From Streptosporangium sp. NBC_01755 (GTDB taxonomy: Bacteria; Actinomycetota; Actinomycetes; Streptosporangiales; Streptosporangiaceae), in NCBI RefSeq assembly GCF_035917995.1, contig NZ_CP109131.1, positions 7,626,001 through 7,690,000 on the forward strand: a DNA stretch of 64,000 nt, in the 5' to 3' direction. Both the position numbers and the translations under genes were made by a program. Under the pieces are notes generated by a model, which did no database searches, was not told where the DNA came from, and worked only from the letters and a program-made list of their open reading frames with translations. This document shows positions 1,554 to 38,902 of this stretch, piece by piece (positions within the stretch are counted from its first letter, which is position 1; each line of letters opens with the position of its first letter).

Positions 1554-2185
1554 CATGTTTTTCGCGCCATGAAGAAAGATCTTCGTGGCGCTTTCGGTGC
1601 GTGCGCGCACAGCGGGGAGAAGAAGGTCCGTCATGGGTTTGTAAGAGTTTGCGGCGTCCTGTCGCGGTAACGTCAGACCATGTTGCGTCCTGGAAGCTGG
1701 TCCAGGCCTGCGGGTGGAAGTCCCGTCCGGGTAAGCACTGGAGCGCCCGGTAGCAGGCCCCGGTTCGTTGTGGAGACATGGCGGGCTGAGCGGGGCGTCA
1801 AGAGCCTCTTTGGAGGGAGCAAGCACGCGGGCCGTAGCGTAAAGCGAACCTTGCAGCCTCGTCAGATTCACAATGGAGAAGCCGAGCCGCTCATGTCACG
1901 GCGAAGGCCATGTCCGGTGGGCCTTGTTCCAGGGTCGGTCTGCCAGGTTCTCCCGGGGTATGGAGGATGGCACGTGTGCATGGTCTGGGCCGGAACAGGA
2001 GAGACCCGTCTGACCACGCCTTTCGTCGGGCACGAGACCGGGCGTATAAGCCGATGGTGAAGTCGTCCGGAGGGCAGCGGGAGTCCGAGGGGGCCGTAGT
2101 ACCGCTGATCGGCGTGCAACATAACGCGCCGGGAGGGAAGGGCCCCCACTTTGATCACGTCCGTGGCGAGGGTAAGCGCGAGGGC

Positions 2186-3526
2186 ATGGCCGGGGTGACC
2201 CGGTCCAACCACCCCGATGGGCGAGCGTCCATCGTCAAAGTGCGAAAACTTCAACGCGGGCTATGGGCTGCGGCCAAGCAGTCTGAGGAGCGGCGCTTCC
2301 ACGCCCTGTATGACCGTATCCACCGGGGTGACGTCCTGTGGGAGGCGTGGGAGCGAGTCCGGAGTAACCGGGGAGCGGCTGGGGTGGATCGGATCACCCT
2401 GGCGCATGTGGAGGAGTACGGGGTCGGGCGGATGCTTGCCGGACTCCAAGACGATCTCCGGGCAGGTGTGTACCGTCCCGCGCCGGCCAGGCGAGTGGAC
2501 ATTGCTAAATCCTCAGGTGGCAAGCGGCCCTTGGGGATTCCGACGATTCGTGACCGGGTGGCGCAGGCGGCGGCCAAGCTCGTGCTGGAGCCCATTTTCG
2601 AGGCGGACTTCTTGGAGGTCTCCTACGGGTTTCGGCCGAAACGGTCGGCGTTGCAGGCCAAGGAGATGATCCGTAAACGGTTCATCGAAGGCCACACTCA
2701 TGTCGCCGAGTTTGACATCGCCAACTTCTTCGGGGAGATCGACCATGGTCGGTTGCTTGCCGAGGTGGGGCGGCGGGTGTCGGATCGCCGGGTTCTCAAG
2801 TTGATCCGCTTGTGGCTTCAGGCGGGGGTGATGGCGGATGGGGAAGTCACGCGGTCGGTCGCGGGCACGCCTCAGGGTGGAGTGATTTCGCCTCTGTTGT
2901 CCAATATCTACCTGCACCTTCTCGATATCGAGCTGAGTAGGCGAGGGGTGGGGGTGCTGGTGCGGTACGCGGATGACGGTGTTGTCTGCTGCCGGTCGGC
3001 TGCCCAGTCCCACGCCGCGCTCGTGGTGGTGGAGGAGGTCCTCACTTCGCTGGGGTTGAGGCTGCATCACGGCAAGTCGAAGGTTGTTGACCTCAGGGAA
3101 GGCCGGGAAGGCTTTGACTTCCTGGGCTGTCATTTCCGGGCTCGTTTTTCGGGCCGGATGTGGGAGAAGTACGGCATGGTCCGCTACTACCTGCATCGCT
3201 GGCCCTCGGCGCAGGCGATGAGCCGCTTGCGCGAGAAGGTCCGGGTACGGACGGGCCGCCGCCGGTCGGGAACGGATATCCGGGTGATCATCGCGGATCT
3301 CAATCCGGTCCTGCGCGGCTGGGGTAACTACTTTCGCACCGGGAACGCCGCCAGAAAGTTCGGCCAGGTGGATGACTACGTGGTGTGGATGCTGTGCCGC
3401 TTGATGATCAAGAAGCGGGGTCGCAATCTGCGGGCGGGTCAACACCAGGCATGGACTCGTGAGTGGTTTGAAGGGCACGGCCTGCTCCGCCTACGCGGGA
3501 CCGTCCGCTATCCGAAGGCAGCGTAA
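2186..3526 (+). CDS. ltrA: Group II intron reverse transcriptase/maturase
   Basis: The LtrA-type protein (446 residues from the ATG at 2186) splices and mobilises its host intron. Reverse-transcriptase blocks are visible: GVDRITLAHVEEYG, the PLGIPTIRDRVAQ block, FDIANFFGEIDH (catalytic Asp), GTPQGGVISPLLSNIYL, and the VRYADDGVV box with the YADD catalytic pair. The GIIM maturase segment (LNPVLRGWGNYF) follows. No clear HNH endonuclease (zinc-knuckle) domain is visible after it. The frame is open upstream to 1910, but that part reads as intron RNA sequence, so I chose the internal start just before the conserved N-terminus. Confidence 0.9.
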   Translation: MAGVTRSNHPDGRASIVKVRKLQRGLWAAAKQSEERRFHALYDRIHRGDVLWEAWERVRSNRGAAGVDRITLAHVEEYGVGRMLAGLQDDLRAGVYRPAPARRVDIAKSSGGKRPLGIPTIRDRVAQAAAKLVLEPIFEADFLEVSYGFRPKRSALQAKEMIRKRFIEGHTHVAEFDIANFFGEIDHGRLLAEVGRRVSDRRVLKLIRLWLQAGVMADGEVTRSVAGTPQGGVISPLLSNIYLHLLDIELSRRGVGVLVRYADDGVVCCRSAAQSHAALVVVEEVLTSLGLRLHHGKSKVVDLREGREGFDFLGCHFRARFSGRMWEKYGMVRYYLHRWPSAQAMSRLREKVRVRTGRRRSGTDIRVIIADLNPVLRGWGNYFRTGNAARKFGQVDDYVVWMLCRLMIKKRGRNLRAGQHQAWTREWFEGHGLLRLRGTVRYPKAA

Positions 3527-3754: not shown

Positions 3755-4366
3755 GTGATCGGCGCCTTCTATGAGGATTCCCTGCGAGGAGGAAGCGTGC
3801 ACATCGAGTATGCCGACGGCCGCGTCCGGCCGCTCGTCTCCGAACGCTGGCTGCGACCGATCGAGGGCGATGAGCACATCCTGGCCCGATGCGGCGGGCC
3901 CACCCTCGATGTCGGTTCGGGGCCCGGGAGGCTGACCGTGGCGCTCACCCGGATGGGCGTTCCCGTCCTGGGCATCGACGTCACCCCGCTGGCCGTCAGC
4001 CTGACACGGCGCGCCGGCGGCCTGGCCCTGCGCGGCAGCGTCTTCGACCCCCTTCCCGGTACCGGCCGGTGGTCCGAGGCGCTGCTGGCTGACGGCAACA
4101 TCGGCATCGGCGGTGACCCGGAGGCCCTGTTGCGGCGCCTGCGGGAGCTGCTCAGGCCAGGCGGTGCGGTGATCGCCGAGCTCTCCCCACCGGGGTCGCG
4201 CAGCACGGTGGAACGCGTACGGCTGCGCCAGGACGAGCGGGCGGAGGACTGGTTCGCCTGGGCGACCGTCTCCGCCGACGACATCGGCGCGCTCGCCCGG
4301 CGCTGTGGATTCCCCGGCGCCGAGCGCTGGAAGGAGGCCGGGCGATGGTTCGTGACCCTGTCATGA
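3755..4366 (+). CDS. Class I SAM-dependent methyltransferase
   Basis: The 203-residue protein has the class I methyltransferase motif I (LDVGSGPGRL, residues 51-60), an acidic ligand at GIDVTPLAV and a post-motif LLRPGGAVIAEL. It should transfer a methyl group from S-adenosylmethionine to an unknown substrate in the cytoplasm. The start is the GTG at 3755, preceded by GGCGGGAAAG. Its last codons overlap the next gene, so translation is probably coupled. In other actinobacteria I recall similar methyltransferases beside molybdopterin oxidoreductases and GT2/DUF2064 genes, as here. The substrate is unknown, and a role in modifying a sugar or lipid intermediate is only inference. Confidence 0.8.
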   Translation: MIGAFYEDSLRGGSVHIEYADGRVRPLVSERWLRPIEGDEHILARCGGPTLDVGSGPGRLTVALTRMGVPVLGIDVTPLAVSLTRRAGGLALRGSVFDPLPGTGRWSEALLADGNIGIGGDPEALLRRLRELLRPGGAVIAELSPPGSRSTVERVRLRQDERAEDWFAWATVSADDIGALARRCGFPGAERWKEAGRWFVTLS

Positions 4367-5550
4367 ACGACCCCGTCACGAACGACCCTCCCGCGAGAAG
4401 GAGGCCCGTCGAGGCGGCCACCGCGCTCGTCCGGAGCCTGCCCGGGCGCTTCACCAGCCCCCTGCACTCCGAGCGTGTGGCCGCCCAGCTCGGCATATGG
4501 CTCGGCATCAGCTTCACCGTCGCCCTGGTGACGGGCCTGATCAGCCACTTCATGCAGCATCCGCCGCCGTGGATGCTGTGGCCCTCGCGGCCGGTCAACC
4601 TGTACCGGGTCACGCAGGGGGTGCACGTCATCGGCGGGCTGGCCACGATCCCGCTGCTCCTGGCCAAGCTGTGGAGCGTCTACCCCAGGCTGTGGCAATG
4701 GCCGCCCTTCCGGTCCCTCTCGCACGCCGTGGAGCGGGGGCTGGTGCTCCTACTCGTCGGTGGCGCGCTGTTCCAGCTCGTCACCGGCCTGCTGAACATC
4801 TCCTACGCCTACCTGTGGCCGTTCTCCTTCCCCGCGGCGCACTACTGGACGTCGTATGTGCTCTACGGCGCCCTTCTCATCCACGTGGTCAACGAATGGG
4901 CGAAGGTCCGCGCGAACCTGTGGACCCGCGAGCGCGTCGAGGCACCGGAGGTGACCCGGTCGCGGCGCCGTTTCCTGGGCACGGTCGCCGCCGCCTGCGG
5001 GCTCACCGTCATGGTCACCGTCGGCGAGACGTTCGCGCCGCTGTCGAAGCTGGCGGTTCTGGCGCCGCGGGCCCCGCAGGCGGGCCCGCAGGGCGTCCCG
5101 GTGAACAGGACGGCGGTCGCGGCCGGGGTGACCGAGACGATCCGCCGCCCGGACTTCCGGCTCGCGATGACGGGGGCGGTGCGCGCCGAACTGTCACTGA
5201 CCCTCGCCGAGCTGGCGGCGATGCCGCAGCACACCGCCCGGCTGCCGATCTCGTGCGTGGAGGGGTGGAGCGCCGAGGCCGAGTGGGGCGGGGTGCGGCT
5301 GCGCGACCTCGCCGAGCGCGCCGGCGTCGCACCGGAGGCCGTCCTGGTGGTCGAGTCGCTCGAACGGTCCGGCGCCTACAACTCCAGTGAGGTGCGGGCG
5401 CCGCACTGGAACGACCCGCTCACCCTGCTGGCCCTGCGGATCGACGGCAGCCCCCTGGACCCCGACCACGGCTACCCGCTCCGGCTGATCGCGCCCAACC
5501 GGCCGGGAGTCCTGCAGACCAAGTGGGTCACCAGGGTGGTGGTGTCATGA
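4363..5550 (+). CDS. Membrane cytochrome b-like / molybdopterin oxidoreductase fusion
   Basis: The ATG at 4363 overlaps the preceding stop codon (TCATGA); an ATG at 4345 is the alternative. About 200 N-terminal residues form several membrane helices containing His residues suited to heme b. An RRRFLGTVAAACG segment then leads to a sulfite-oxidase-type molybdopterin domain with the expected Cys ligand in ISCVEGWS (Cys298 from this start). The C-terminus NRPGVLQTKWV is typical of that fold. The enzyme probably exchanges electrons between an extracytoplasmic Mo-cofactor site and the membrane. Its stop overlaps the next start (ATGA). The substrate is unknown. Confidence 0.85.
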   Translation: MNDPVTNDPPARRRPVEAATALVRSLPGRFTSPLHSERVAAQLGIWLGISFTVALVTGLISHFMQHPPPWMLWPSRPVNLYRVTQGVHVIGGLATIPLLLAKLWSVYPRLWQWPPFRSLSHAVERGLVLLLVGGALFQLVTGLLNISYAYLWPFSFPAAHYWTSYVLYGALLIHVVNEWAKVRANLWTRERVEAPEVTRSRRRFLGTVAAACGLTVMVTVGETFAPLSKLAVLAPRAPQAGPQGVPVNRTAVAAGVTETIRRPDFRLAMTGAVRAELSLTLAELAAMPQHTARLPISCVEGWSAEAEWGGVRLRDLAERAGVAPEAVLVVESLERSGAYNSSEVRAPHWNDPLTLLALRIDGSPLDPDHGYPLRLIAPNRPGVLQTKWVTRVVVS

Positions 5551-7748
5551 ACGGGAGGATCCGCCGCCGGTCCGCGTACGGCGTGGGCGCCGCTTTGATC
5601 ATCATGGGATTCACCGGCCTGCTGCTGGAGGCCGACCGGACCGATCCGCTCGGCTGGGCACTGTGGTTCGGCGGCCTGATCGTGGCCCACGACGCGCTCA
5701 TCGTGCCGCTGGTCCTGCTGGCCGGCGCGGCCACCGCCTGGCTGCGCGAGCCCTTCCTGTCACCGGTGCGCGCCGCACTGGTCACCGCGGGAATCCTCTG
5801 CCTGGTGGCCCTTCCCGCGGTCCTCGGCATCGGCAGGAGGGCCGACAACCCCTCGCTGCTGCCCCTGGACTACGGCCGCAACCTGGCCGCCGTCCTGGCC
5901 GTGATCGCGCTCGCCGCCGCCTGCGCGATGGTCGTGTCCCGCCTGCGCACCCGGCCGAGGGAAAGGACCCGGGTATTGCTGGGCGCGGTCGCGGGGCTCG
6001 CGGGCGGCCTGATCATCGGCTCCCTCATGGCCTACCAGGGCATGGTGGGCCCCGCCGGCTGGGCGTCCTTCGTCGTCCACGCGGTGATCCTCGGCGCCGT
6101 GCTGGGAGCCGTCGCCGGGGAGCGGGCACGGGACCTGGCCACGGCCTTCTCCTGCGGCATACTCGTCGGCCTGCTCGACTGGGTGGTGTGGCACCTGACG
6201 CTGCGGCCTCTCCTCGCGGGCGAGATCCCCACCTGGACGATCACTTCCGGAGACCGGTCCTTCCACGTCCTGGTCGGGAACGTCCTCCTGGGCGGGATCA
6301 CCGGGGCACTGCTGTACGGAGCACTCACCGCCCACCGCCTGGCGGCGACGCGATCCGCGCCCGCCGCGCCGGTCGCGCCGCCCCGGGTCGTCATCGTCGG
6401 CGGCGGCTTCGGCGGGGTGAGCACGGCGCGGAGGCTGGACCGCCATGCCGCCCGGGGGCTGCATGCCGAGGTCACCCTGATCAGTGACACCAACGCCCTG
6501 CTCTTCACGCCGATGCTGGCCGGTGTGGCCTCCAGCGCGCTGGAGCCCCGGCACGTCAGCGCCCCGGTGCGCGCCGCCCTGTCACACACGGCGTTCCTGC
6601 ACGGGCACGTGGACGCGATCGACACGGTACGCCGCGTCGTGCACGTGACGACCGGGGAGGAGGGCATGGCGGCGGTGCCCTACGAGCATCTGGTCCTGGC
6701 CGTCGGCTCCGTGCCGCACTACTTCGACCTGCCCGGCCTGGCCGAGCACGCCTTCGCGTTGAAGACGATCGGCGACGCTACCCGCCTGCGCAACCACGTG
6801 CTGGGCGCGCTGGAGGACGCCGACCTCGAACCCGACCCGGTGCGACGCGCGCAACTGCTGACCATCGTCGTCGCCGGCGGCGGCTTCGCCGGGACGGAGC
6901 TGATCGCCGAGCTGTTCGACCTCGTGCACGGGGTGCTCCACCAGTATCCGAACATCCGCGACCGCGAACCGCGTTTCGTCCTCGTGCACGCCGGTGAGGG
7001 CATCCTGCCGGAACTCTCCGCCGAACTCGGCGCGTACGCGCTGGAGAAGTTGCGCGGCAGGGGGATCGAGTTCCATCTGAAGACCCGGGTCGCCGAGGCG
7101 AGCCCCGGTGCGGTACGGCTGAGCGACGGGCAGACGATCCCCACCTGCACGCTCGCCTGGACGGCGGGCAACCGCCCGCACCCTCTCGCCGGGGCGCTGC
7201 CCGCCGAACACGGCCGCGGCGGGTCCGTCGTCGCGGACCCGTTCCTGCGGGTCACCGGGATCGACGGCCTGTGGGCGATCGGCGACTGCGCGCGCATCCC
7301 AGGCACCGACGGCCTGCCCTGCCCTCCGACCGCGCAACACGCGCTGCGCGAAGGGCGGACGGCCGCGGACAACATCGCCGCCGTACTCCGTGGCCGCCCG
7401 CCCGCGGAGTTCCGCTTCCGGGGTCTCGGCATCCTGGTGGCGCTGGGTCACCGAACCGCTGTGGCCGAGATCCGCGGCCACCGGCTGTCAGGGCTGCTCG
7501 CCTGGATCATGTGGCGGGCGATCTACCTGGCCAAGCTTCCCGGAGGGGAGCGGAAGGTGCGCGTCCTGGCCGACTGGTTGATCGACCTGGCCTTCCCCCG
7601 CGACATCACCCTCACCCCCTCCCCGCCTCCCTCCCGCCTAGGCACGACACCCGCACCTCCCGCCGGCTCCGGTGAACCCGGGAGCGGCGGGGAGCCCGGG
7701 AGGCCCGAGGGGCCCGCACCTTCCCTTCCCGGAGGAGACCATGAGTGA
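5547..7748 (+). CDS. NDH-2-like FAD/NAD(P) oxidoreductase with N-terminal membrane domain
   Basis: The start is the ATG at 5547, in a four-base overlap with the preceding gene. Residues 1-270 (of 733) are hydrophobic, with about seven or eight membrane spans. The rest is a two-Rossmann flavoprotein: VVIVGGGFGGVSTARRL near 282, a second dinucleotide fold IVVAGGGFAGTELIAEL, and the FAD-binding GLWAIGDCARIP. This matches type II NADH:quinone dehydrogenases, which normally lack such a membrane domain. Residues about 150-260 share GAVAGLAGGL and a degenerate WxxxLTLxPLL unit with the next protein. It is probably a membrane NAD(P)H dehydrogenase feeding quinone or the molybdoenzyme. The C-terminal tail is Pro/Gly-rich. 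Confidence 0.85.
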   Translation: MNGRIRRRSAYGVGAALIIMGFTGLLLEADRTDPLGWALWFGGLIVAHDALIVPLVLLAGAATAWLREPFLSPVRAALVTAGILCLVALPAVLGIGRRADNPSLLPLDYGRNLAAVLAVIALAAACAMVVSRLRTRPRERTRVLLGAVAGLAGGLIIGSLMAYQGMVGPAGWASFVVHAVILGAVLGAVAGERARDLATAFSCGILVGLLDWVVWHLTLRPLLAGEIPTWTITSGDRSFHVLVGNVLLGGITGALLYGALTAHRLAATRSAPAAPVAPPRVVIVGGGFGGVSTARRLDRHAARGLHAEVTLISDTNALLFTPMLAGVASSALEPRHVSAPVRAALSHTAFLHGHVDAIDTVRRVVHVTTGEEGMAAVPYEHLVLAVGSVPHYFDLPGLAEHAFALKTIGDATRLRNHVLGALEDADLEPDPVRRAQLLTIVVAGGGFAGTELIAELFDLVHGVLHQYPNIRDREPRFVLVHAGEGILPELSAELGAYALEKLRGRGIEFHLKTRVAEASPGAVRLSDGQTIPTCTLAWTAGNRPHPLAGALPAEHGRGGSVVADPFLRVTGIDGLWAIGDCARIPGTDGLPCPPTAQHALREGRTAADNIAAVLRGRPPAEFRFRGLGILVALGHRTAVAEIRGHRLSGLLAWIMWRAIYLAKLPGGERKVRVLADWLIDLAFPRDITLTPSPPPSRLGTTPAPPAGSGEPGSGGEPGRPEGPAPSLPGGDHE

Positions 7749-9183
7749 GCCGACCGGCGAGCTGACGCGGAGCGGCCGAGGCACCCCGTCCGGGGTGCTG
7801 CCCGGAGCCGTGGCCGGACTGGCCGGTGGGCTGGTCTTCGGCGTCGTCATGGCGCTGATCGGCTTCCTGCCCACGGTCGCCGCCATCGTCAGGACCGACT
7901 CGATCCCGGTGGCCTTCACCGTGCACATGCTGTTCGCGGCGATCATCGGAGCGGGCTTCGGGATCCTCGTCGTGCGGCAGCGGACCCACGCCAGCGAACT
8001 GCTGTTCTGGGGCCTGGTCTACGGGGCCCTGTGGTGGTTCCTCGGCCCGCTCACCCTGCTGCCGATCCTGCTCGGCAAGCCGGTCACCTGGGATCTGGCC
8101 AGCGGCCAGAACCTGCTGCCGAGCCTCATCGGCCACCTTGTGTACGGCACGGTCACCGCGGCGGCGTTCGCGTTCCTGAGACGCTCGAAGGCGCCCGGGG
8201 CCCGGCGGCCGCGGGTCGCGAGCGTGGTCCGGGGCCTTGCGGCGGGGGCCCTCACCGCCCTGGTACTGGTCGTCGGCCTGCGCGTCATGGCCGAAGCGGT
8301 GCCCTACGGCCTGCCGGCCACCGGCCTTCTCCTCGGAGCCGGATACCCGCTGCTCTTCGGCGACCGGCCGGAAGGCACCGGCCCCGCGCTGATCCGCGGC
8401 ATGGCCTACGGCTTCGCCTGGTGGATCCTCGTGGCCCTGACGATCCCCTCCCTGATCTCGGACGGGACGCTGAAGTGGTCCCTCACCGGCGTGCGGGACG
8501 CGGTGCCCCAGTTGCCCGCCCACCTGCTCCTGGGGGCCGGGACCGCCGCCCTCTTCGTCTGGCTCGGCGGCCTCGCGCGCGTTCTGCTGGAGGAGGACGT
8601 CCGGCGGCTGCGCCCGCAGACGTTCGGTCCCGGCAGGTTGCGCGCCGCCGGGTACGGAGCCGTGTCCGGCCTGGCCGGCGGCCTGGTCTTCGCCCTGGTG
8701 CTGTTCCCGAGCGGCCTGCTGCCCACCGTGGCCCGCCTGGTGGGCGCCACCACCGCCATGCCCGGCCTCCTGGCCCACCTGGTGATCGCCATGGCCGTCG
8801 GCGTCTCCTACGCGACCTTCTTTCGCGGCAGGAGTTTCGACCTGACGTCCGGGCTCGGCTGGGGCGTCTCCTACGGCTTCCTGTGGTGGATCCTCGGCGC
8901 CCTCACCCTGACGCCGGTCCTGCTGGGCGGGCCCGCGCGGTGGACCGCTGCCGACCTGGCCGGGGCCTTCCCCGTCCTGATCGGTCACCTGGCCTACGGC
9001 GCTGTCCTCGGCGCTCTCTACCAGCGGCTGGAACAGCGGGCCAGCCCGTGGTGGCTCACCCGCGGCCAGGCCGACGCCGAACGCAGGACCGCCCTGCGCG
9101 AGCAGACCCTCGGCTCGGCCCCCGCGCTCTGGACCCTGGTCCTGCTCATCGCCCTGACCCTGCCCATTCTGATCACGAACTGA
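7741..9183 (+). CDS. Polytopic membrane protein built of three repeated units
   Basis: The ATG at 7741 has GGAGGAGACC just upstream and overlaps the previous gene by eight bases. The 480-residue protein is almost entirely membrane helices. One unit recurs three times, marked by GLVYGALWWFLGPLTLLPIL, GMAYGFAWWILVALTIPSL and GVSYGFLWWILGALTLTPVL (about residues 95, 220 and 380). Units 1 and 3 also share VxGLAGGLVF at their start and IGHLxYG near their end. I do not recognise a named family. The position suggests a partner of the flavoprotein, since a similar unit is fused to that enzyme. A carrier, quinone-binding or assembly role is all speculation. Confidence 0.8.
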   Translation: MSEPTGELTRSGRGTPSGVLPGAVAGLAGGLVFGVVMALIGFLPTVAAIVRTDSIPVAFTVHMLFAAIIGAGFGILVVRQRTHASELLFWGLVYGALWWFLGPLTLLPILLGKPVTWDLASGQNLLPSLIGHLVYGTVTAAAFAFLRRSKAPGARRPRVASVVRGLAAGALTALVLVVGLRVMAEAVPYGLPATGLLLGAGYPLLFGDRPEGTGPALIRGMAYGFAWWILVALTIPSLISDGTLKWSLTGVRDAVPQLPAHLLLGAGTAALFVWLGGLARVLLEEDVRRLRPQTFGPGRLRAAGYGAVSGLAGGLVFALVLFPSGLLPTVARLVGATTAMPGLLAHLVIAMAVGVSYATFFRGRSFDLTSGLGWGVSYGFLWWILGALTLTPVLLGGPARWTAADLAGAFPVLIGHLAYGAVLGALYQRLEQRASPWWLTRGQADAERRTALREQTLGSAPALWTLVLLIALTLPILITN

Positions 9184-9204
9184 CCTGTCGCGCCAGCCGC
9201 TCCT

Positions 9205-9254
9205 GGGGTCCCGGTAGTAATGAAGAAATTTCCAACGAAGTAGCCTCTGACCTG
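9205..9254 (+). repeat. Tn3 left inverted repeat (50 bp)
   Basis: Identical over 50 bases to the reverse complement of 12817-12866. It begins GGGGTCCC, as in Tn3-family ends, and is longer than the usual 38 bases. Confidence 0.95.
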
Positions 9255-9360
9255 TGATAACGGAGGTGTTTGACCGCCTGTGGCGGTTGGTGATCACTGC
9301 CGCTACGTTCGTTCCGGTTTTGTCCGGTACGGCAGGTGGGGTGGTGCGTTGTCCGAGAAG

Positions 9361-12300
9361 ATGTTCTCCGAGGAGCAGTTGGAGCAACTGCGTTCGTTCC
9401 CGGAGATCAGCAGCGATGAGTTGATCCGATATTTCACGCCGACGTCGGCTGACGTGGCGTTCGTCGACCCCGGTCGTGGGCGGCGCTCGGTGGATCAGCT
9501 GGGCATGCTGGTCCAGCTGTGTACGCTGCCGTGGCTGGGATTCGTGCCCGACGATGTGGCCTCGGCGCCGCCGGCGGCCGTGGCCCGGGTCGCGCAGCGG
9601 CTGGGCGTACCACCGGCGGCGCTGCGACTGTACGGGCACCGGGCCCAGACCCGCTCGGACCACCTGGCGCAGGTCGCCAGGTACCTGGAGTGGAAGAGCG
9701 CTCCCGCAGAGGGCCAGGCGATGAAGGAGCTGGAGCAGTTCCTGCTGGATCGGGCGATGGAACACGACTCGCCGACGCTGCTGTTCAACCTGGCGCGCGA
9801 GTATCTGATGGCGGCCAAAGTGATCCGGCCCGGCGCCCTGGTCTTGGCCAAGATGGTCGGCACGGCCCGCAAGGGCGCCGCCGATCTGACCTCGCAGCTG
9901 GTAGGGCACCTGCTGACGCAGGAGGTCCGCGCCGACCTGGAGCGGATGCTGGTGGTGGATGCGGGGCTGGGGATGACCCGGCTGGAGTGGCTGGTCACCC
10001 CGGCCCGGGACGCCTCGGCGACGTCGGTGAAGAGCGCGATCGACAAGTTGGCCTGGCTGCGCGCGATCGACGCCCACCAGATGGATGTGTCGGTATTGCC
10101 GAACGAGCGCCGCCGGTTCCTGGCCCAGGTCGCACGCCGCTCGACCAACCAGGGGCTGGAGCGGCGCAAGGAGCGTAAGTCCCCGATCCTGCTGGCGTTC
10201 GTGGCCCAGGCCGCGGTCGACCAGCTCGATGAGGTGGTGGCCCTGTTCGACCAGGCGGTCTCAGCGCGGGAGTCGCGGGCCAAATCCAAGACCGACGAGG
10301 CGCTCATCGAGCGGGCCAAGCGGGGCGAGGTCCAACAACTGCTGATGGAGGAGATCCTTCCGGTGCTGGCCGACCCGTTGGTTGCCGACGACGAGGTCGG
10401 TGGCCTGCTACGTGAGCGGATCGGCATGCAGAGGCTGCGGGAGATCATCTCTGATGTGTGGAAGCCGCTGCCCCGGGACCACGGGCGGCTGTCGGAGCTG
10501 GAGTCCTCCTACACCTACCTGCGTCAGTTCACCCCGAACGTGCTGGCCGCGATCGATTTTCAGGGCGGGCCGGGCACGGGCGAGCTGATGGAGGCGGTGG
10601 CCATCTTGAAGGAGATGAACCGGCTCGGCGGCCGTAAGGTGCCCGCGAGGGCGCCGACCGCGTTCGTGCCGGCCCGGTACGCCGACTACCTGGCCAAGGC
10701 CCGCAGGTCTGGGGAGGACACCGCCTACCGCCACTTCTGGGAACTGTGTGTGATCTTGTGTCTGCGGGACGGGTTGCGCAGCGGGGATGTGTTCGTGCCG
10801 GGTTCGCGCCGCTACGCCGACCCTGCCACCTACCTGTACACGCCCGAGCAGTGAGCGCCCCGGCAGGGCGAGTACTGCCGTCTGGTGGGCAAGGCGTCGA
10901 ACGCGGCCCAGGCGCTGGAGCAGGGCAAGGAGGAACTGCACGCGGCGCTGGCGGAGCTGGAGCAGACGCTGGCCGGCGCCGCATCGGATGAGACCGGGAC
11001 GGTCCGCCTCGATGAGGAGGCCCACCTGGTGGTGGCGCCGCTGTCGGCCGAGGACGCCCCGGCCGAGGCCAAGGCGCTGAAGGAGGAGCTGGCCGCGATG
11101 CTGCCGTTCGCGCCGATCGCCTCGCTGCTGATCGAGCTGGACGCTCGCACGCATTTCCTGGACTGTTTCACCCACGCGGGTGGGCGCAAGCTGAGCACGT
11201 CGGCCGAGACCAAGCGCAATATCTTGGCCGTGCTCATCGCGATGGCCACCAACCTGGGCCTGGCGCGCATGTCGGAGGCCTGCGGGGTGTCCTATGACGT
11301 GCTGGCCTGGACGATGGAGTGGTACATCCGGGAGGAGACGCTGCGCGAGGCCAACACGGTCATCGTCGACCACCACTACCAGCTGGAGCTGGCCAAGGTG
11401 TTCGGCGGCGGCACCATGAGCTCCTCCGACGGTCAGCGGTTCCCTGTGCGGGGCAAGAGCCTGAGCGCCCGCACGATGGTGATTCACGGCGGGCAGGTGC
11501 TTTCGACCTACACCCACGTCTCGGATCAGTGGTCCACCTACGGCACGAAGATCATCGTGCCGACGGCGCGGGAGGCGCACTTCGTCCTGGACGACTTCCT
11601 GGGCAATGCCACCGATCTGCCGATCGTCGAGCACGCGACCGACAGTCACGGAGCCACATTGATCAACTTCGCGTTGTTCGACCTGGTCGGCAAAGCGCTC
11701 ACCCCGCGGATGCGGGACCTGACCCGGGTCACCCTGGTCCGTGACGACACCCCGACCGAGATCGCCAAGCGCTACCCGCACGCCGGGCCGCTGCTGGGCG
11801 CGTGCTGAAATGAGGATCTGGTGGCCGACTGCTGGCCGGACCTGCTGCGGATGGCCGGCTCGTTGAAGTACGGCCAGGCCACCGCCTCGCTGATCGTCGG
11901 CAAGTGGTCGGCCGCCTCCCGGCAGAACACCCTGGCGGCCGCGCTGAAGGAGTGGGGCATGCTACGCAGGACCGTCCACCTGGCCAAATACCTCTCAGAC
12001 CCGGCCTTCAGAAGGAAGATCTCCCGCCAGCTGAACAAGGGCGAGAGCCTGCACGCTCTGCGCCGGGACCTGCATTACGCCCAGCAGGGCACGATCACTC
12101 GCCCGCATCTGGAGCAGCAGACCGAGCAGGCGTGGTGCTTGACCCTGCTGACCAACTCGGTGGTCGCCTGGACAACGGAATATTATTCCAGAGCGGTGCT
12201 GGAGCTGCGCTCCCAGGGCCGAGAGGTGCCGGATGGGATTTTGTCGCATATCTCGCCCGGCCACAGCGACAACATCAACTTCTTCGGCGTCATCAACGTC

Positions 12301-12411
12301 GACGTCGAGGCGGAACTGGCTAAGCTCGACACCAGCGGCTGGCGGCCGCTGCGGCCCGCGCAACTAAGTGCAGCGGCTGGTCCCTGCACCGGCTACGCCA
12401 CAGCGCGCTGA
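9361..12411 (+). pseudogene. tnpA: Tn3-family transposase TnpA with two in-frame stops
   Basis: One reading frame encodes a near-complete Tn3 transposase of about 1000 residues, from MFSEEQLEQLRSF through a DUF4158-like N-terminal region to the DDE core. Core features include VDHHYQLELAKVFGG, SSDGQRFPVRGKS, EHATDSHG and the C-terminal NFFGVINVDVEAEL. TGA codons interrupt it at 10852-10854 (after YLYTPEQ) and 11806-11808 (after GPLLGAC). At both positions relatives would have Trp, so each is most simply a TGG-to-TGA change. Three separate open segments result. The last ~14 residues run out of the homology into the recombinase remnant. An upstream start at 9280 is possible but less family-like. 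Confidence 0.9.
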
Positions 12412-19587: not shown

Positions 19588-20695
19588 GGGCCTGTTCCAG
19601 GTTCAGATCACTGTTCGGTTGAACCGGCCATCTGATCACCCTCGGACTGGTAAACGTCTTGAGTGACGCGTGGCGATCCGACGGATTCCGAGTGGGAGTT
19701 GATCGAGCCGCACTTGCCGCTGGGTGAGCGCGGACCGATCCCTGACCTGCGCAAGCAGCTGAACGGCGTGATGTGGCGGTTCCGTACCGGAAGCCCGTGG
19801 CGCGACCTACCCGAGTGCTACGGCTCCTGGTCGACCGTCTATGGCCGCTTCCGGCAGTGGGCGCTCAATGGCACCTTCGAGACGCCGATGGAGCAGATGA
19901 TCGCCGAGGCCGCCCGGCGCGGGCAGGTCGATCTCGGCCTGGTCAGCGTGGACTCCACCGTCGCGCGCGCCCACCACCACCACCACGCCGCCGGCATGGC
20001 GATCGATCCCAAGCTGCTCCAGGAGTTGGAGAAGGCCGCCGAGGAGGAAAAGGGACTGCGCCAAAGGGACAAACCGCCCCGGTGACGGCAACGGACGACA
20101 CGGCCGACGCCGAGGCAGAGGCCATGCGCGTCCAGCGCCGCCGGGTGCGACGACGCCTCAAGGTCCGCCTCAAAGCCGCCGCCCTGGGCCGCTCGCGGGG
20201 CGGGCTGACCGTCAAGACGCACCTGTCCACCGACCGCCGCTGTCGCCCGCTGTCTTTCGTGGTGACGCCCGGCCAGGCCGCCGACAGCCCGCGCTTCGCC
20301 GCTGTCCTTGACCGCGTCAAGGTCCGCGGACCGGTCGGCCGGCCCCGCACCCGGCCCGACGCGGTCGCCGCCGACAAGGCGTACTCCTCCCGCGCCAACC
20401 GCGTCTACCTGCGCCGACGCAACATCCGGGCGGTGATCCCGGAGAAGGTGGACCAGGCCGCCAACCGGAAGAAGCGGGGCTCGCGGGGCGGCCGCCCAAT
20501 CTCCCACGACGCCGGACTCTACAAGGACCGGAACACGGTCGAGCGCGGTATCAACAAGATCAAGGAGTGGCGAGGGCTGGCCACGCGCTACGACAAGACC
20601 CCCGCCAGCTACCTCGCCGGACTCCACTTACGCGGAGCGGTCATCTGGCTCCGTAGCCTCCACCCCGCAGCATGATCCGAACTCAGAACAGCCCC
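19588..20695 (+). mobile_element. IS5-family insertion sequence, apparently complete
   Basis: The imperfect ends are GGGCCTGTTCCAGGTTCAGA TCA at 19588-19610 and, inverted, 20673-20695 (18 of 23 match). They enclose a two-frame IS5-type transposase. A related, truncated copy lies at 38157-38902. Confidence 0.7.
19663..20675 (+). CDS. IS5-family transposase, two overlapping frames
   Basis: Frame 1 (19663-20085) encodes the N-terminal IS5 domain: EWELIEPHLPLGERGPIPD, WRDLPECYGSWSTVYGRF and the first catalytic Asp in GLVSVDSTVARAH. The rest, with GGLTVKTHLSTD, VAADKAYSSRANRVYLR and the terminal RNTVERGINKIKEWR (catalytic Glu), is in another frame that ends at 20675. The switch lies near 20045-20090 at A-rich GAGGAAAAGGGA. 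The copy at 38.2-38.9 kb has the same two-frame arrangement, so frameshifting is probably programmed and not damage. Confidence 0.85.
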
Positions 20696-38156: not shown

Positions 38157-38902
38157 CTACGGTGACCCCAGGTAGGCGCGGTTGGCGCGGGAGGAGTACG
38201 CCTTGTCTGCCGCGACCGCGTCCGGCCGGGTCCGGGGGCGGCCGGCGGGTCCGCGCACCTTGATCTTGGCCAGAACCGGGATGAAGCGTGGGCTGTCCGC
38301 GGCCTGCCCAGGTGTGAGGATGATGGACAGGGGGCGACAGCGACGGTCGGTCGCGAGATGGACCTTACTGGTCAACCCGCCCCGGGAACGGCCGAGTTCG
38401 GCTGCCTTCAGCCGCGCCTTGCGGCGTCGGCGCAGAATCCGGCGCTGTTCCCGATCGGGGTCCTCTCCACTCTCGGGCACCTCGCCTACGGGGTCGTTCC
38501 GCCCCTTTTTCGGAGCCCCTTTTCCTCCGCCACGGCCTTCTCCAGCTCTTCCAGGAGTTCCGCGCCGACCACCATCCCGGCCGCGTGGTGATGGGCGCGG
38601 GCAACGGTGGAGTCCACACTGACCAGGCCGAGATCGACGTCGCCGCGGGCCGAGGCCTCGGCGATCATCGCCTCCATGAGTGCCTGAAAGACCCCGCCGC
38701 GTGCCCACAGGCGGAACCGGTCGTAGACCGTCGACCAGGAGCCGTAGCTCTCGGGCACGTCCCGCCAGGGGCTACCGGTCCGGAACCTCCACACCACCGC
38801 GTTGAAATAATTCCGCAGGTCAGGGATCGGCCCGGACGCCCCCAGCGGCAGGTGCGGCTCGATCAACCCCCACTCGGCATCTGTCAGGTCACCACGCGTC
38901 AC
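38157..38902 (-). pseudogene. IS5-family transposase, C-terminally truncated
   Basis: It is close to the transposase at 19663-20675: frame 1 (38486-38902) reads TDAEWGLIEPHLPLGASGP, WRDVPESYGSWSTVYDRF and GLVSVDSTVARAH, and frame 2 carries GGLTSKVHLATD and VAADKAYSSRANRAYL. It then stops as YLGSP at 38157, before the catalytic Glu region. The missing end was replaced by sequence with the 17-base repeat. It lies just upstream of an orphan ABC permease and may have removed that gene's ATPase partner. Confidence 0.85.

Follow-up and report, generated by a model that had tools for sequence, protein, structure and literature searches.

Two adjacent genes built on one membrane unit

A 64,000-nucleotide stretch of the Streptosporangium sp. 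NBC_01755 genome (contig NZ_CP109131.1, positions 7,626,001 to 7,690,000; hereafter the window) carries two adjacent genes whose products share a four-helix membrane unit. The first gene encodes P0001, a flavoprotein that comprises, from N to C terminus, an extra membrane domain, one such unit (unit F) and a type II NADH dehydrogenase (NDH-2) domain. The second encodes P0002, a triple-unit membrane protein (TRI) in which three tandem units of ~130 residues, termed R1, R2 and R3, are followed by a last long helix. The two genes share 8 nucleotides, and together with the two genes before them they form a run in which each gene overlaps the next (Table 1).

Table 1. Positions of the two genes, their domains and the preceding genes of the run, numbered from the first letter of the window
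Feature	Positions	Strand	Basis or detail
Methyltransferase-like gene, first of the overlapping run	3755..4366	+	sequence
Gene for a membrane part plus a molybdopterin-binding oxidoreductase domain	4345..5550	+	Oxidored_molyb E 1.6e-27
Flavoprotein P0001, 733 amino acids, ATG 5547 to stop 7748	5547..7748	+	Pyr_redox_2 E 9e-45, NDH2_C E 1.9e-8
P0001 extra N-terminal membrane domain, residues 1-138	5547..5960	+	identity to stand-alone genes
P0001 unit F, residues 139-267	5961..6347	+	four predicted long helices 137-163, 169-193, 197-223, 239-269
Codon of W212, invariant Trp of unit F	6180..6182	+	61/61
P0001 NDH-2 domain, residues 278-690	6378..7616	+	Pfam, Foldseek
Codon of H481, in place of the acidic NADH-favouring residue	6987..6989	+	His in 61/61 fused NDH-2
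Triple-unit membrane protein TRI (P0002), 480 amino acids, ATG 7741 to stop 9183	7741..9183	+	
TRI unit R1, residues 19-150	7795..8190	+	H62 7924-7926, W99 8035-8037, H132 8134-8136
TRI unit R2, residues 158-288; the divergent unit of the window protein	8212..8604	+	W228 8422-8424
TRI unit R3, residues 298-433; the best kept	8632..9039	+	H346 8776-8778, W383 8887-8889, H416 8986-8988
TRI C-terminal 13th long helix, residues 443-478	9067..9174	+	AlphaFold2 model

An earlier examination of this DNA, the sequence-only reading, had proposed that one ancestral unit is used four times in the two genes, and shuffles, profiles and controls all agree with it; its coordinates for the two genes are also correct. 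The four units can be aligned over most of their length. Local alignments scored with BLOSUM62 give Z values, from 1000 shuffles, of 17.8 for F-R1, 13.6 for F-R3 and 7.3 for F-R2, along with 29.5 for R1-R3, 14.8 for R1-R2 and 13.3 for R2-R3, and none of the 1000 composition-keeping shuffles attained any of the six scores. Profile-profile comparison with hhalign, in which the F profile held 15 of 18 rows (three with worn N-terminal ends were left out), returned E values of ~6e-22 for F-R1, 3e-18 to 5e-19 for F-R2 and 8e-22 to 6e-24 for F-R3. The profile significance between F and the TRI units on which the proposal had been staked is therefore plain (E ~1e-18 to 6e-24). Fifteen of 16 reversed-profile controls fell at 0.0004 to 0.1, with those between different units at 0.0005 or worse; the sixteenth, F reversed against F, reached 4e-6. 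The other membrane part of P0001 (residues 1-138), used as a further control, gave 0.05 to 0.23 against the units.

Two sequence motifs had been singled out in the same reading. GAVAGLAGGL is indeed identical in F (P0001 residue 146) and R1 (P0002 residue 22), and R3 carries the version GAVSGLAGGL. The longer GxxYGxxWWxLxxLTxxPxLxG, claimed for all three TRI units, occurs exactly at residues 91 and 375, but R2 differs in two places, the Pro and the final Gly. The idea that F resembles the TRI units by chance or through shared hydrophobic composition has next to no chance of being right: every segment is a membrane helix rich in Gly, Ala and Leu, and reversed F still matches F, but the shuffles, the reversed profiles and the unrelated membrane domain of P0001 reject it, the forward E values are at least 12 orders better than the different-unit controls, and helix order, Trp and Gly agree between F and the units.

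In a tree of the units from 20 modules, R3 forms one clade (98/95), and R2 of the 12 nearer modules groups with R1 of seven of the eight others (96/83), on long branches. An approximately unbiased test rejects a single clade for none of R1 (p 0.13), R2 (p 0.16) and F (p 0.45).

Distribution of the pair

The scan for relatives used one peptide pattern and one genome per species with a triple alignment, and the best 80 of 105 confirmed stretches were taken as loci. Triple-unit genes are present in 70 of these 80. In 65 of the 70, TRI is immediately preceded by an NDH-2 gene in the same orientation; the other five loci are cut by a contig end. The distance from the NDH-2 stop codon to the first TRI unit is -1 to 192 nucleotides (median 38). 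Of the 65 NDH-2 genes, 61 carry unit F, three more are truncated on the 5′ side, and the last, in a Nocardia locus (L113), has a broken NDH-2 frame with the unit in the other piece. The number of units is three in 69 of the 70 triple-unit genes (three of them split over two frames) and two in one gene cut by a contig end. Complete cases always have the count 1+3, with R1 of two haloarchaeal TRI proteins a marginal match (E 1e-3 and 0.2).

The 70 loci, many from metagenome-assembled genomes, are spread over nine NCBI phyla: Actinomycetota (44), Chloroflexota (12), Myxococcota (4), Armatimonadota (2), Bipolaricaulota (2), Acidobacteriota (2), Methanobacteriota (haloarchaea, 2), Sysuimicrobiota (1) and Bacillota (1). 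Matches occur in 25 of 150 genomes of the window's family, and 11 of these have a triple-unit gene (the window's own included); none of the five other listed genomes of the genus matches, and the phylum search matched 21 of 296 genomes. These counts are not independent of the foregoing, because several contigs occur both among the family and phylum loci (L061-L079) and among the named ones (L101-L170). Patchy occurrence with unbroken pairing would fit spread of the two genes as a pair.

A profile of the fused NDH-2, run against 292 genomes of the phylum (E up to 1e-100, with the top four candidates per genome scored), found 11 places at 717.9 bits or more, the next NDH-2 scoring 506. Nine of the 11 stand in a pair. 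Of the remaining two, the first sits where a contig ends (G227 contig 9) and the second has no adjoining TRI gene; this last, at 8454-10586 of locus L214, has a partly matched unit. A TRI gene without a fused NDH-2 was found in none of the 65 named loci with room for one, nor in the 18 of 19 family and phylum neighbourhoods with room. In a quick tree, 22 fused NDH-2 proteins fall on one side of a branch and 25 unfused ones on the other (Shimodaira-Hasegawa-like approximate likelihood ratio test, 95). The Streptosporangium genome itself holds two more NDH-2 proteins, 38% and 37% identical and without the unit.

The residue counts below come from three sets. The TRI alignment has 66 of 67 possible rows (L159, with R1 cut, was left out, and the split or cut L142, L144, L165 and L170 never entered), and that of the fused NDH-2 has 61 of 63 (L113, with its broken frame, and the cut L122 were left out). 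The unfused comparison set (n=24) consists of the 22 best-scoring unfused loci and the two copies from the window's own genome, and is not a random sample; the 25 unfused proteins of the tree are this set plus one from L154.

Conserved residues and a histidine pair

A small set of positions is kept in every kind of unit. The pattern G-x3-G-x3-W in helix 3, a Gly in helices 2 and 4 and a Pro after helix 3 recur in R1-R3, in F and in 33 single units from stand-alone relatives, with single-position exceptions in R1-R3 and F. The second helix-3 Trp is invariant, as W99, W228 and W383 in 66/66 TRI proteins each and as W212 of F in 61/61. The helix-2 Gly is retained in 66, 65 and 66 of the 66 R1, R2 and R3 units and in 60/61 F units, and the counts for the helix-4 Gly are the same. 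With the pairing seen in 65 of 70 loci (the rest cut), small residues and Trp that are nearly invariant in all four units look as shared packing would, and a direct contact of F with TRI is plausible on this evidence.

A less uniform feature is a pair of His residues, one in helix 2 and one in helix 4; the two helices run in the same direction, and each His is 6-7 residues short of the predicted outer end. Among the 198 units of the TRI alignment, both are present in 111, only that of helix 2 in 6, only that of helix 4 in 16 and neither in 65; no p-value is attached to this co-occurrence because the sequences are related. Two units carry the pair in 48 of the 66 TRI proteins, one unit in 15 and none in 3, and in several proteins His is replaced by Asn, Gln, Tyr or Leu. 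The pair is present in R1 and R3 of the window protein and absent from R2 and F. Likewise, among TRI proteins with 41% identity or more to P0002 (45, counting P0002), both His are found in R1 (34) and R3 (39) but in R2 of none. Among the 21 with 36% identity or less, both are found in R2 (21) and R3 (17) but in R1 of none. The family thus divides, rows L146-L160 and L162-L169 of the TRI alignment against the rest, by whether R2 or R1 is the unit without the pair. These two units mostly join in the unit tree, which may reflect a swap of order or a long-branch effect.

Unit F has both His in only 4/61 sequences and is without the pair in 57/61, in 16 of these through a gap at the helix-2 column. 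Since 32 of 33 single-unit relatives possess the pair, it was very likely a feature of the ancestral unit. The sequence-only reading had suggested a ligand, a quinone or a lipid, common to all four units. That suggestion is not supported: the His pair supplies the likeliest ligand residues, and its retention in at most two TRI units and rarely in F argues against one ligand for all four; F instead looks like a docking or structural unit.

The NDH-2 domain

The structure model of P0001 has a mean predicted local distance difference test (pLDDT) score of 83.9, with residues 1-75 and 84-107 below 50. Its flavoprotein part has the NDH-2 fold with two dinucleotide-binding domains, as seen with Foldseek and Pyr_redox_2: template modelling scores by target length are 0.93 to Bacillus YjlD and 0.92 to the enzyme of C. 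thermarum (4nwz), at E 4e-31 to 6e-30. The glycines of the flavin adenine dinucleotide (FAD) and NAD(P) motifs (G285, G287, G290, G444, G446 and G449) are kept in 61/61 fused proteins. So is E451, the equivalent of E172 of S. aureus NDH-2, which PMC5299459 gives as the conserved catalytic Glu. The C-terminal two-helix part that binds the membrane is also present (NDH2_C E 1.9e-8; model helices 650-663 and 667-682).

The same text describes AQxAxQ as a quinone-site motif of NDH-2 (PMC5299459), and here it is retained in part: AQxA is kept (Q597 in 60/61), and the last Gln is Arg in 60/61. This Arg is shared by 24/24 unfused actinobacterial NDH-2 proteins and so sets apart a wider group. W538, D580 and K663 are present in all 61 fused proteins. 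K663 is Lys in 1/24 unfused proteins and thus marks the fused group, without any claim that it is the NDH-2 lysine.

Position 481, where the second strand of the NAD(P) domain ends, is His in 61/61 fused proteins and acidic in 23/24 unfused ones, and it aligns with Glu of 4nwz and Asp of the mycobacterial enzyme 9mqy. The one exception among the unfused, L192, is also the unfused sequence nearest to the fused group. In yeast Ndi1 the acidic E272 has been proposed to exclude NADPH (PMC11670749) and E242 is given as the catalytic Glu (PMC5299459). We equate position 481 with E272 because the alignments agree and the spacing from the catalytic Glu, 30 residues, is equal. Use of NADPH by the fused NDH-2 is the prediction that this residue suggests.

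Topology and structure models

The AlphaFold2 model of TRI has a mean pLDDT of 91.9 and a predicted template modelling score of 0.91, and no fold for the whole protein was found in the PDB. In 66/66 TRI proteins the N-terminal side of the membrane has more Lys plus Arg than the opposite side (mean 11.0 versus 3.7). An N terminus inside the cell and four helices per unit would make all units parallel and place the NDH-2 domain in the cytosol, and parallel repeats allow rotational pseudo-symmetry. Helix order in the models is the same six helices in R1 and R3, while R2 is without the two short ones and F without one of them. The 13th helix of TRI starts with an Arg/Glu-rich stretch.

Relatives and known systems

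Pfam coverage of the unit, a question left by the sequence-only reading, is partial. DUF1440 (PF07274) matches 66/66 TRI proteins weakly (P0002 included), at E up to 0.01 and at best 4e-13, but its score for P0002 is 24.9 bits, below the gathering cut-off of 34.7. DUF6789 (PF20587) matches 22/66, and no NCBIfam model matches P0002 at E up to 1. E. coli YagU, a DUF1440 protein, resembles the unit by eye, its helix 2 bearing a His (VTHIIFS) and its helix 4 the motif GHL, but unlike TRI it is a single unit, and it matches the unit profiles only marginally. A yagU mutant survived about 3-fold more poorly at pH 2, according to PMC1626474. The yagU gene of E. coli K-12 adjoins paoABC, genes of a molybdenum aldehyde dehydrogenase, which recalls the molybdopterin gene of the window; this is probably coincidence.

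Other relatives are the stand-alone single-unit proteins (L081-L100 and L171-L180), which share the Trp, Gly and His pair over 33 units. Their profile matches R3 at 1e-36, R1 at 7e-34, R2 at 4e-17 and F at 4e-16. They differ from the two-gene module in having one unit each and no strong NDH-2 match adjoining, a weak one occurring in 2/30 loci. Several carry a Met-rich stretch (for example, MPMMMGMP) after helix 3. Near the 31 scanned single-unit loci, a cluster of Crp-type regulators was seen 12 times, Pyr_redox_2 six times, DUF3179 five times and glutaredoxin three times.

P0001 is like the known NDH-2 enzymes of C. thermarum (4nwz), S. aureus (5na1), mycobacteria (9mqy) and yeast (Ndi1) in fold, NDH2_C, glycine motifs and catalytic Glu. 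NDH-2 is described, in PMC5220320, as a single-subunit monotopic protein, and P0001 departs from this in the four predicted long helices of F. Further differences of P0001 and P0002 from the known enzymes are the fusion to a four-helix unit, the 13-helix partner next door and the His in place of an acidic residue. By its title, entry 9a63 has the Bacillus NDH-2 YjlD modelled with its partner YjlC, a case of an NDH-2 with a second protein. Bacillus YjlC is not known to be a multi-pass membrane protein.

No description of an NDH-2 fused to such a unit, or of the module, was found in titles and the starts of abstracts, which is weak evidence of absence, as subscription journals lay mostly outside that search; nor was a functional study found under the family names DUF1440 or DUF6789.

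Neighbouring genes and mobile elements

Gene clusters were compared over 71 neighbourhoods, of which 17 had no called genes (G+C at most 62%, with little training sequence of their own), leaving n=54. Beyond the pair itself no conserved neighbour was found, no other cluster occurring in more than 8 of the 71. A relative of the molybdopterin oxidoreductase lies near the module in 7/71, the window included. In the product of the window's copy, 4345-5550, a stretch resembling a twin-arginine signal lies midway along the chain (TAT_signal_seq E 0.018, below the cut-off). The protein might be a user of the quinol made.

The first 138 residues of P0001 are 34, 32 and 35% identical to Nocardia genes of 135-139 amino acids at L161, L121 and L113 (E 1e-7, 2e-7 and 7e-5), and none of 500 shuffles scored as high against any of the three. 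By these alignments a small membrane gene, free-standing elsewhere, is present here as a fused copy. Among 20 loci it is complete only in the window and L061, with its first part in L062. At L113, L121 and L161 the small gene stands alone, adjoining a molybdopterin gene, and the L113 protein has no Pfam match.

Several mobile elements lie in the window. A Tn3-family transposase gene directly follows TRI (9361-12411; DDE_Tnp_Tn3 E 3e-63 and 6e-49), its frame broken by at least two stop codons. In L062, TRI is directly followed by relatives of the DUF2064 and glycosyltransferase genes that are found beyond the transposase here, so the element was probably inserted between them. Just upstream of the gene run are a group II intron reverse transcriptase (1910-3526; RVT_1, GIIM) and a DDE_3 transposase (648-1238). 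Two similar IS4/5-type transposase fragments are located at 19699-20085 and 38486-38866, the first identified through DUF4096 (E 2e-21) and the second by its similar start.

A putative two-subunit oxidoreductase

We consider it probable, though well short of assured, that the products of the pair make up a single membrane-bound NAD(P)H:quinone oxidoreductase of two subunits, with a membrane sector built as 1+3. The sector itself would most likely be a pseudo-tetramer of DUF1440-like units. From the sequence it is clear that the catalytic part is an NDH-2 bearing the FAD and NAD(P) motifs, that one DUF1440-like unit precedes it in the same chain, that the next gene supplies three more, and that the two genes travel together. 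Unit F would pack on the three TRI units by way of the faces of small residues and Trp that all four retain, such that a former homo-oligomer of single units is now built as 1+3. With the flavoprotein on the cytosolic side, as the N-in topology suggests, hydride would be taken from NADPH or NADH, and electrons would pass to menaquinone at the usual NDH-2 site beside the membrane sector. The ligand of the sector (a quinone head group, heme or metal) may be held in the membrane's outer half by the two TRI units with a His pair, whereas F and the third TRI unit have presumably turned structural. Horizontal spread as a pair would account for the scattered occurrence.

Several observations weigh against this proposal. 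The fused NDH-2 at L214 (G042 contig 133) stands without TRI, in a genome that also has a full pair. The adjacent, overlapping genes might encode two membrane proteins that act independently and are co-regulated. Use of NADPH is read from a single residue, and the nearest unfused NDH-2, L192, already has His there, so that the change is not tied to the fusion itself. Finally, the three of 66 TRI proteins without any His pair make an essential heme or metal doubtful for those proteins.

A bolder version of the same architecture, which we hold to be unlikely, has a pseudo-tetramer with two outer bis-His sites, where electrons from cytosolic NAD(P)H would reach a heme, metal or quinone and serve an outer acceptor, and where the single-unit relatives would represent the ancestral homo-oligomer.

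It is also conceivable, if somewhat unlikely in our view, that TRI is an independent transporter or a lipid or quinone handler that is merely co-expressed, and that F is an anchor left over from an ancestral fusion and touches nothing in particular. Adjacency is no proof of contact, one fused NDH-2 lacks TRI, and F mostly lacks the His pair. However, wherever there was room for both genes in the overlapping sets of named loci and family and phylum neighbourhoods, TRI was not seen without a fused NDH-2, and a mere anchor needs no Trp and Gly conserved at the positions of TRI.

Distinctly less credible is transmembrane electron transfer, in which the two His-pair units would each bind heme b or a metal near the outer face and pass electrons from cytosolic NAD(P)H to an acceptor outside. 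The coupling of the helix-2 and helix-4 His (111 units with both, 65 with neither and 22 with one), their depth below the outer ends of two parallel helices and the presence of the pair in nearly all single-unit relatives, several with the Met-rich stretch, speak for such a role. Yet the His gives way to Asn, Gln, Tyr or Leu in several proteins and the pair is missing from a few altogether, and one pair per unit, on one side only, offers no obvious path across the membrane.

To an ion pump, in which the sector would couple NAD(P)H oxidation to proton or sodium movement in an electrogenic NDH-2, we give very little credence: a sector of ~16 helices on a normally non-pumping enzyme invites the thought, with no analysis supporting it directly, but the 12 unit helices of TRI have no conserved carboxylate or Lys at depth in the 66 sequences. 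Among columns charged in at least half of them, the acidic ones are E86 and E431, 2 and 3 residues from a helix end, and those lying deeper are Arg (R164, R219 and R301, 4-6 residues in) and the His pair, with none mainly Lys.

If the proposed two-subunit complex is real, it would be a distinct respiratory entry complex that occurs across nine phyla, including haloarchaea, and probably has another nucleotide preference, in contrast to NDH-2 as described, a single-subunit, non-pumping enzyme that touches only the membrane surface. The DUF1440 and DUF6789 families would gain a partner of known chemistry and, in the His pair, a testable site. The 1+3 build, with the site lost in two units, would offer a clean case of a repeat whose copies have become specialised subunits.

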